NCBI GenBank assembly: GCA_947581665.1
Contig: CANPVI010000002.1
Span: 1 to 38,716 of the forward strand
Direction of reading: 5' to 3'
Origin: an uncultured Atopobiaceae bacterium
GTDB lineage: Bacteria > Actinomycetota > Coriobacteriia > Coriobacteriales > Atopobiaceae
DNA length: 38,716 nt
Each line of letters begins with the position of its first letter. The first letter of the stretch is position 1. Position numbers and translations under genes: made by a program. Positions 21,678 through 37,535 of the stretch are shown piece after piece. Under the pieces are notes generated by a model. That model was not told the DNA's origin and did not search any database. It saw nothing but the letters and a program-made list of their open reading frames with translations.

Positions 21678-22048
21678 TGGTGGAGGCGCGGAGGATCGAA
21701 CTCCGGTCCAAGCCAAACCCCTGACGGTTTTCTCCAAGCTCAGTCCATGGTTCGCATTCGAGCGCCTCGGGTCCACAGACAATCCCTCGGCGCCCTAGCT
21801 GGTTCGGCCTTTGGCCACGCCATACCGGCTACGTGCGCGGCCGCATCCCCGTGAGGTGATGCCTTCGGGTTCTTAGGGGAAGGTCCCCCGAAGACAGCTG
21901 CCGTCTATCGACTAAGCAGCGAGAGCCAGTTGAGGCTCAGCAGTACGAGTGTTGTCAATTCAATTTGACGGTACCCCTGTTTCACGTGGCGAGGAGACCA
22001 CGGCTTGCTTGCCGTCTCAAATCTGACCTGTCGAAACCAGTCGCCCCC
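21678..22048 (-). ncRNA. ssrA: Transfer-messenger RNA (tmRNA)
   Basis: Rescues stalled ribosomes with SmpB and adds a degradation tag. The 5' end GGGGGCGACTGGTTTCGAC is at 22048. The 3' end, at 21678, is a tRNA-like T-arm with GTTCGATCC and encoded CCA. The tag reading frame near 21950-21910 ends GCT CTC GCT GCT TAG (A-L-A-A-stop); read back from there it gives DNTRTAEPQLALAA, preceded by ATT and by an in-frame TGA, so the resume codon is ATT or GAC. The total is about 371 bases, normal for one-piece tmRNA. Stem-loops suited to pseudoknots follow the tag (for example CTTCGGGGGACCTTCCCC). No clear -10 box lies directly upstream of 22048; a longer precursor is possible. Confidence 0.95.
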
Positions 22049-36656: not shown

Positions 36657-36747
36657 GGAGAGCTGACCGAGTGGCTGAAGGTGCTCGCCTGCTAAGCGAG
36701 TAACGGGTGTGACCCGTTCTGGGGTTCGAATCCCCAGCTCTCCGCCA
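36657..36747 (+). tRNA. tRNA-Ser (anticodon GCU)
   Basis: 91 bases with encoded CCA. The acceptor is GGAGAGC/GCTCTCC, the anticodon stem CTCGC/GCGAG encloses loop CTGCTAA (anticodon GCT), the long variable arm ACGGGTGTGACCCGT is typical of serine tRNA, and the T-loop is GGTTCGAATCC. It reads AGC and AGU codons. It is followed by a terminator and then by duplicated copies of its own 3' end. Confidence 0.97.
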
Positions 36748-36754
36748 GCAAACA
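36726..36754 (+). repeat. 29-base direct repeat, copy 1 (tRNA-Ser 3' end plus GCAAACA)
   Basis: The T-loop half, acceptor strand, CCA and seven following bases of tRNA-Ser; repeated exactly at 36904-36932. Confidence 0.95.
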
Positions 36755-36757
36755 CAG

Positions 36758-36782
36758 GAGCCCGGCATCGCCGGGCTCTTTT
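36758..36782 (+). terminator. Terminator after tRNA-Ser
   Basis: GAGCCCGGC, loop ATC, GCCGGGCTC (nine pairs), then TTTT, starting 11 bases after the CCA. Confidence 0.92.
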
Positions 36783-36789
36783 CATGCGC

Positions 36790-36925
36790 TGGCGCAGAGC
36801 TGGGGATTCGAACCCGCGAGGGCTTCAGGCGCCAGTGGCGCCTGAAGGGCCGAGCGCGTGCTTTTCGCGCGAAGCCAGCAAAAATCGCGAAGCGATTTTT
36901 GCGTCGAATCCCCAGCTCTCCGCCA
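36790..36925 (+). mobile_element. 136-base tRNA-Ser-ended hairpin element (element 1)
   Basis: Ends 36790-36811 and 36904-36925 are 22-base inverted repeats with one mismatch, and both match the tRNA-Ser 3' end. Inside lie a 12-pair hairpin (36823-36847, CTTCAGGCGCCA/TGGCGCCTGAAG), a GGGCCGAGCG spacer, and an 11-pair hairpin GCAAAAATCGC-GAA-GCGATTTTTGC (36878-36902). No coding capacity. The term mobile element is provisional: the terminal repeats resemble those of a miniature transposable element, but no target duplication has been shown. Confidence 0.6.
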
Positions 36926-36932
36926 GCAAACA
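36904..36932 (+). repeat. 29-base direct repeat, copy 2
   Basis: Identical to 36726-36754. It is also followed by a terminator hairpin with the same ATC loop. Confidence 0.95.
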
Positions 36933-36934
36933 GT

Positions 36935-36961
36935 AAGCCGGCCCATCGGGCCGGCTTTTTG
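36935..36961 (+). terminator. Second terminator-like hairpin after the tRNA-Ser 3'-end copy
   Basis: AAGCCGGCCC, loop ATC, GGGCCGGCTT (ten pairs), then TTTT. It has the same position relative to the repeat and the same loop as the tRNA-Ser terminator, but a different stem sequence. Confidence 0.85.
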
Positions 36962-36988
36962 TTTGCTCGCGGGGAGCCGGGGATTCGA
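36962..36988 (-). repeat. Third, degenerate tRNA-Ser 3'-end copy (inverted)
   Basis: Matches the reverse complement of the tRNA-Ser 3' end plus GCAAA at 24 of 27 positions. Confidence 0.8.
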
Positions 36989-37137
36989 CTTTTACCGCGA
37001 GCTGAGGATGCGGACCGGGCGTTGCCCGGCCTATCAGTCCAAAAACGATCTCCCATGACGTCGAGGCGGAGGGTAGGGCGCGTATGCAAGGGAGCTCGAG
37101 CTCGAGACAAGGATTGAAGGAGCCCAACCGTGTTTGC

Positions 37138-37415
37138 GGTGCGGCGTGAGGGCTCGAGGGTCCAGTGGATCCTCGAGAGCGCATGGCTACGAACCCAAGC
37201 CATAGCGCCATGCGCACAGTCGACGCAAAATCGCTTTGCGATTTTGCTGGCCTGCGCTCCCTTCGGTCGCTCCGGCCCGCGAGGAGCCACAAGGGCTCCT
37301 CGCGCTCTCGGGTTCGAATCCCTCACGCTACGTCAATAGCTCCGGCTCTTCGCAAGATTCGCGAGCCTTTGCATTCTCGAGGATTCACCGGATCCTCGAG
37401 CCCTCACGCCGCACC
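37138..37415 (-). mobile_element. 278-base tRNA-Arg-ended hairpin element (element 2)
   Basis: Ends 37138-37177 and 37376-37415 are 40-base inverted repeats (37 of 40). Their outer 15 bases, GGTGCGGCGTGAGGG, equal the tRNA-Arg 3' end. Read on the minus strand, its core (37322-37220) follows element 1: GGATTCGAACCCG, a hairpin (37278-37304, 11 pairs, CGCGAGGAGCC/GGCTCCTCGCG), a GGGCCGGAGCG spacer, and GCAAAATCGC-AAA-GCGATTTTGC (37225-37247), then GTCGA. No gene inside. The mobile-element label is provisional. Confidence 0.6.
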
Positions 37416-37420
37416 GGAAA

Positions 37421-37448
37421 ACGCAAAGGGCCCGGCTTTGCCGGGCCC
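37421..37448 (-). terminator. Terminator after tRNA-Arg
   Basis: On the minus strand GGGCCCGGC, loop AAA, GCCGGGCCC (nine pairs), then TTTGCGTTTT, starting 11 bases after the tRNA CCA. Confidence 0.88.
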
Positions 37449-37458
37449 ATGCGTTCTC

Positions 37459-37535
37459 TGGTGCGGCGTGAGGGATTCGAACCCCCGACGTTCTGATTCG
37501 TAGTCAGGCCCTCTATCCAGCTGAGGTAACGCCGC
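37459..37535 (-). tRNA. tRNA-Arg (anticodon ACG)
   Basis: 77 bases with encoded CCA. The acceptor is GCGGCGT/ACGCCGC with discriminator A, the D-arm contains CTCAGCTGGATAGAG, the anticodon stem CTGA(C)/(A)TCAG encloses loop CTACGAA (anticodon ACG, read as inosine), and the T-loop is GGTTCGAATCC. It decodes CGU, CGC and CGA. Confidence 0.97.

Follow-up and report, generated by a model that had tools for sequence, protein, structure and literature searches.

The window analysed here, a stretch of 38,716 nucleotides, was taken from contig C2 of a draft genome of 1.73 Mb that is 88% complete. At 36657-37535 it carries a convergent pair of tRNA genes, tRNA-Ser(GCT) and tRNA-Arg(ACG), which were predicted by ARAGORN and match Rfam RF00005. 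The tRNA-Ser gene (36657-36747, plus strand) is the target of the element lying behind it, and the part found copied there is its 3' segment, 36722-36749. Gene and element are separated by a hairpin resembling an intrinsic terminator, GAGCCCGGC-ATC-GCCGGGCTC, with a T-run (36758-36782, plus). The element itself starts with an inverted copy of the tRNA-Ser acceptor and T-arm (X', 36788-36815, plus), whose 28 nt are 96% complementary to 36722-36749 across the intervening terminator, continues with a core of four hairpins (36813-36902, plus; covariance model match 36796-36918) and closes with a direct copy of the tRNA-Ser 3' end (X, 36904-36932, plus), which runs from the TCGA of the T-loop to the CCA plus 8 nt of trailer and is exact over its entire length. 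Within the core, hairpin P2 reads CCC-GCGA-GGG (36813-36822) and is followed by P3 with an AGT loop (36823-36847), P4 with a GA/GA internal loop (36848-36876) and P5 with a GAA loop (36878-36902), all on the plus strand, and the two copies can pair with each other, as 36904-36927 matches 36788-36811 at 96%. Further downstream, a second terminator-like hairpin (36936-36961, plus) and a second, decayed inverted copy of the tRNA-Ser 3' end (36960-36989, plus) are found, which together span 36948-36989 in the repeat analysis. The succession of terminator, inverted copy, hairpin core and direct copy that an earlier, sequence-only reading had described on this side was thus confirmed by the repeat analysis, and its coordinates are right.

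Behind tRNA-Arg(ACG), the target gene on the minus strand (37459-37535), the arrangement is more complex. A terminator-like hairpin, GGGCCCGGC-AAA-GCCGGGCCC (37428-37448, minus), precedes an outer inverted end (37370-37420, minus) made up of the inverted tRNA-Arg 3' end (37401-37415) and the hairpin CTCGAGGATCC..GGATCCTCGAG (37376-37400), and the corresponding outer direct end (37133-37183, minus) consists of a hairpin (37153-37177) and then a copy of the tRNA-Arg 3' end (37138-37152). The outer ends form an inverted repeat of 51 nt with 88% identity that bears GGTGCGGCGTGAGGG, the 3' end of tRNA-Arg. Nested between them is the core of a complete element (37212-37329, minus; P5 hairpin at 37225-37247), and since this inner element has its own inverted copy of the tRNA-Arg T-arm (37310-37328, minus; 19 of 19 positions), the locus is composite. 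Inverted ends carrying the tRNA-Arg 3' end are hence present as had been proposed, while the idea of a single simple element with 40-base ends has to be given up. The Ser and Arg elements do have common interiors, which share 19 nt at 95% and belong to one covariance model family (119.5 and 83.1 bits, respectively).

Genome G001 also has the hairpin module that flanks the Arg element, with its order inverted, in its elements at Arg-ACG and Ser-CGA. Some elements further contain, left of P3, an additional module of two hairpins, TTGACAGTCC-AGT-GGACTGTCAA and a GCGCAC.. stem, which others have right of P5 and inverted (L049, L089, L143; L138, L139; window 37138-37415), as if the elements were built from movable modules. 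The window also contains a tmRNA gene (21678-22048, minus), 3' of which no element is found; its tag peptide as given by ARAGORN, GSCLRGTFP, is without the usual Ala-Ala-type end and may be mispredicted.

Structure of the element family

The 3' flanks of tRNA genes were inspected in three genomes of the window's genus, and a covariance model was built from ten complete elements. In genome G005, the layout seen at the Ser and Arg genes occurs at about one fifth of the tRNAs, with decayed remnants at others. The elements measure about 140-220 bp and are gene-less, and no autonomous, integrase-encoding version was seen between the copies. Where they form tandem arrays, these hold different cores but always in the same orientation.

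Aligned, the ten complete elements fold into one closed multi-branch structure, in which P1 is formed by the inverted tRNA end paired with the direct one and encloses P2 (CCC-GNRA-GGG), P3 (a variable stem with an AGT or CTTGT loop), P4 (with the GA/GA internal loop) and P5 (with a GNA loop). Of its 46 pairs, 23 are changed on both sides, 95.6% of the alignment cells are paired, and none of 500 shuffles equalled this structure; in an alignment of 44 sequences, changes on both sides were found for 40 of the 46 pairs. G-T pairs account for only 1.0% in P3 and 1.8% in P5, though both stems are strongly variable, compared with 5.3% and 7.9% in the acceptor and T stems of tRNAs from the same genomes. 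The scarcity of G-T pairs, together with the loops of P5, which are mostly GNA, favours a structure that would be formed or corrected at the DNA level. It has been reported that template switching during replication both creates and maintains perfect hairpins (PMC8794818), and as such, covariation alone is no proof of an RNA function. This literature and the low G-U content weaken the view that the covariation demonstrates a functional RNA, and template switching may be what maintains the hairpins here. A search of Rfam 15 revealed no family matching the element, as only tRNA and tmRNA reach the gathering score and all others stay far below it; the matches obtained at permissive E-values were chance-level, microRNA-like hits to the palindrome of tRNA and terminator and were discarded.

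Distribution and target genes

With the covariance model, elements were detected in 49 of 140 genomes of the family Atopobiaceae (mostly drafts, one per species), representing 12 of 35 genera, in numbers of up to 14 per genome and in all six genomes of the window's genus. Many contigs of genome G000 end at tRNA genes or elements (C18, C30, C49, C55, C73, C77, C83, C97), so that its copy number is probably underestimated. Among 84,980 species, a 22-base pattern matched only in Coriobacteriia, in records from rumen, deer and termite named Eggerthellaceae, Coriobacteriaceae, Atopobiaceae or Coriobacteriales, and in two Ca. Saccharibacteria; within the Saccharibacterial order, 4 of 295 genomes match. 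The element is therefore present in two phyla, and the core pattern found no match in viral contigs.

Among the targets are tRNAs for Ser, Glu, Ala, Arg, Val, Lys, Phe, Thr, Leu, Trp, Gly, Asp and selenocysteine, and one Saccharibacterial element adjoins the 3' side of a tmRNA gene (Rfam RF00023), with an inverted copy that mirrors the T-arm of this very tmRNA including its non-canonical loop (GGGTGAGATCCCCC / GGGGGATCTCACCC). Elements lie on the strand of the tRNA, usually 43-57 nt 3' of it. A same-strand tRNA is found upstream of 79 of the 108 distinct matches, and for 69 of these it is within 75 nt; the remaining matches represent contig edges, antisense echoes of the palindrome, tRNA 3' halves and degenerate tRNA-like ends. 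Several of the 3' halves start close to the anticodon loop, and both they and the degenerate ends were probably displaced by ordinary islands. Four loci show a 3' half, a terminator and a complete element but no 5' half (L177 and L179, tRNA-Arg; L218, tRNA-Phe; L205, tRNA-Gly), the halves probably being remnants that were moved away when islands integrated at the anticodon loop. The search of tRNA 3' flanks for the core that the sequence-only reading had suggested hence turned up the same layout at many tRNAs of the genus and the family, and neither end sequences away from their matching tRNAs nor a prevalence of cores without matching ends, which would have made the link to the neighbouring tRNA a coincidence, was encountered over the 108 distinct matches.

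Occupancy is patchy between orthologous tRNAs within one genus, and decayed copies are present. In Coriobacteriales from the termite gut (L220, L200, L203, L213), the inverted T-arm follows the tRNA at a distance of about 10-35 nt and no clear terminator is seen, which means that the layout does not require one. A recurrent sequence, GGGGTTATAGGACA..ACGTGT(TGGTG), interrupts elements or directly follows tRNAs at L042 (G000), L088 (G001), L152 (G013) and L208, twice just 3' of hairpin P3, and resembles one end of an insertion sequence with a preference for element loci.

The direct copy starts in the T-loop, is on the same strand as the tRNA and runs to the CCA, and often extends into an identical trailer and a copy of the terminator, with at least 54 identical nt in several cases. 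Forty elements have a tRNA in range, and in 33 of them the direct copy matched the neighbouring tRNA better than any other among 102 different tRNA ends. At positions that discriminate between orthologous tRNAs of different species, the direct copies agree with their own tRNA 200 times versus 14 times with the other one, and the inverted copies 163 versus 46 times, these being counts from ordered pairs that are not independent of each other. No inverted copy was seen behind element-free tRNAs, from which it follows that this copy belongs to the element and, together with the 33 unique best matches, that the association of the ends with the neighbouring tRNA is not due to chance. Its extent differs: in the window's genus the inverted copy covers both T-arm and acceptor, whereas in genera g9 and g27 and in termite Coriobacteriia it is largely restricted to the T-arm, so that P1 need not be a full copy.

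Some of the ends also bear traces of their history. The inverted copy of a Val-TAC element has changed along with its tRNA, and the ends at L104 match an older state of tRNA-Glu and not the present one. Horizontal transfer was considered for the latter and dropped, as the direct copy corresponds to the tRNA-Glu of related genera and a later change of the tRNA is the simpler explanation. As Val-TAC and Ala-CGC elements look vertically inherited in two species, the matching of ends may in part reflect inheritance combined with palindrome correction. Between L084 (G005) and L142 (G000), neither the tRNA-Glu element nor the sequence directly flanking it shows any difference, while other tRNA flanks of these two species differ by about 8-20%; strong conservation and recent exchange would both account for this identity.

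The cores, in contrast to the ends, are not associated with the identity of the tRNA, as their similarity is 0.763 for the same tRNA in different genomes versus 0.752 for different tRNAs. From these comparisons, cores are exchanged between tRNAs, and in G001 the Ser-CGA and Arg-ACG elements are near-identical in P2-P4 and differ in their ends and in P5. The junctions of the elements are precise across tRNAs.

Possible origin of the element

The closest parallels are found in tDNA islands, which likewise take the 3' part of a tRNA or tmRNA gene as target, have a same-orientation fragment reaching from the T-loop to the 3' end at their far side and occur in tandem arrays, and for which the Islander criteria demand an integrase gene within the insert and a length of at least 2 kb (PMC4383910). 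The present insert is bounded by an intact tDNA and a same-orientation 3' fragment in just this manner; with its 140-220 bp, however, it is without genes, offers no room for an integrase and would be removed by Islander's filter, and it differs further by the inverted T-arm copy and by one core being common to many tRNAs. MITEs are also short and non-autonomous with inverted ends, but their terminal repeats are constant, whereas the ends of the element change with the target and the duplication, which passes the terminator, varies and is not of fixed length. Arrays of integron cassettes resemble the element arrays in that their units contain folded, variable palindromes of conserved structure (attC); by description they are set apart, as the element is seen without cassette genes, at tDNAs instead of an integron platform and with ends that are tDNA copies. 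The rtT repeats of E. coli tyrT, which follow a tRNA gene in tandem and include a copy of its 3' end, are presumably confined to one locus and one tRNA and free of a common multi-hairpin core with tRNA-dependent ends.

REP/REPIN sequences with their RAYT (Y1) transposases, IS200/IS605-type, are similarly short, non-coding, hairpin-forming and numerous in a genome, but the element is always found at tDNA 3' ends, with ends that vary with the target. Such an origin was rejected, as neither a constant end nor scattered extragenic sites were found and a Y1 transposase is missing from several element-rich genomes (G002, G003, G005 and G013, all element-bearing and 96-99% complete). An origin from retrons, group II introns or diversity-generating retroelements was rejected as well, as no RVT_1 reverse transcriptase was found in G002, G003, G005, G031, G156, G157, G159 and G164, although a past or transient source of this activity may be conceived. 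Thus, the survey of Y1 transposases and reverse transcriptases in several element-rich genomes yielded no enzyme linked to the element. In Rfam 15 and the open-licence literature, the scope within which we judge novelty, we found no named family with this layout, in line with the expectation of the sequence-only reading. A precise pair of empty and filled sites with intact flanks was not found among orthologs of the same genus: the flanks can be aligned, but empty sites are not reconstructable because divergence of the terminators obscures which of the copies is the original one.

From our point of view, the observations are tentatively best described by a non-coding hairpin core that is, or recently was, mobile, enters tRNA and tmRNA genes at the T-loop and has its ends copied from the target, a reading that we regard as quite possible while keeping considerable reserve. 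The main rival, which we consider unlikely, if worth attention, is that the elements are instead gene-less miniature tDNA islands. These would be circular cassettes of about 140-220 bp, each provided with a tDNA 3' end and a terminator of its own and integrated at the T-loop through a tyrosine recombinase supplied in trans. Matching ends would then arise since only a cassette with the right tDNA fragment regenerates the respective tRNA, and the displaced same-orientation fragment next to an intact tDNA, the T-loop as a known crossover site and the tmRNA as a favoured target are all familiar from tDNA islands (PMC4383910). The start of the direct copies in the T-loop, the constant orientation and the tandem arrays with different cores would fit, too, and all eight genomes checked contain at least one tyrosine recombinase gene. 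However, several element-bearing genomes have only one to three of these genes, counted without classification, which is the number expected of the Xer housekeeping enzymes alone. Moreover, the inverted T-arm copy is left unexplained, the ends would need to be swapped as the cores are not tRNA-specific, and ends carried in from elsewhere would blur the species-specific tRNA differences, which the ends in fact follow.

Rather improbable, in our estimate, is a structured RNA or DNA maintained by the host to act on the adjoining tRNA gene, be it as an extended terminator, in processing or antisense control, or as a decoy against integrating elements. The strong covariation, the conserved GNRA and GNA loops, the GA/GA internal loop, the fixed position past the terminator and the potential of the inverted copy to pair with the tRNA 3' end would agree with such a function, but not the patchy occurrence among orthologous tRNAs of one genus, the decayed copies and the swapping of cores between tRNAs; furthermore, G-U pairs are very few for an RNA, and the element lies mostly past the terminator and hence probably outside the tRNA transcript. 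We give even less credence to a replication artefact that involves no mobility, in which template switching at the palindrome of tRNA and terminator generated the duplications and quasipalindrome correction kept the hairpins. While template switching is able to make and keep perfectly paired hairpins (PMC8794818), X, terminator and X' constitute a long palindrome, the stems are near-perfect, and the Val-TAC inverted copy changed together with its tRNA, a precisely delimited core common to many tRNAs, many genera and two phyla cannot have arisen independently. The earlier proposal of an element that acquires the tRNA 3' end, or has it as its template, consequently agrees best with the exchange of cores, the matching ends and the tmRNA target, and its second suggestion, a repeat recombining with tRNA genes, is left as the alternative.

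For a core whose ends are copied from its target, mobility, a single-stranded route and a responsible enzyme are what we infer, and one can imagine the following course. The element's own sequence would be the core only, i.e., the four perfect hairpins P2-P5, and insertion would take place at the T-loop of a tRNA or tmRNA gene, where, plausibly by a single-stranded route, the core is joined to the strand broken in the T-loop. The 5' half of the tRNA would then prime re-synthesis of the 3' segment, resulting in a direct duplication of T-loop, acceptor, CCA, trailer and usually the terminator, and the tRNA gene would be kept intact because the copy adjoining its 5' half is complete. The growing strand might subsequently fold back, copy the T-arm in reverse, together with the acceptor in the case of the window's genus, and be ligated to the folded core, so that the inverted copy could pair with the direct one to form the closing P1. 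Palindrome correction by template switching during replication may thereafter keep the arms perfect.

Transposons and islands are identified through ends that stay constant or through the attachment sites they carry, a rule that ends copied from the target would break, and standard finders would miss an element that is this short, gene-less and variable at its ends. Its near-perfect and fast-evolving hairpins constitute a large natural set for testing how palindromes stay perfect. With slightly more caution still than for the origin itself, we consider it possible that the elements represent a new class of mobile DNA, which consists of a folded hairpin core only, inserts at the T-loop, takes both ends from its target, settles harmlessly behind any tRNA and is common to Coriobacteriia and Saccharibacteria. 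Such an element would be a natural, harmless way to place DNA behind any tRNA gene, and given that the elements occur in two phyla, one may ask whether they were passed between Coriobacteriia and Saccharibacteria.
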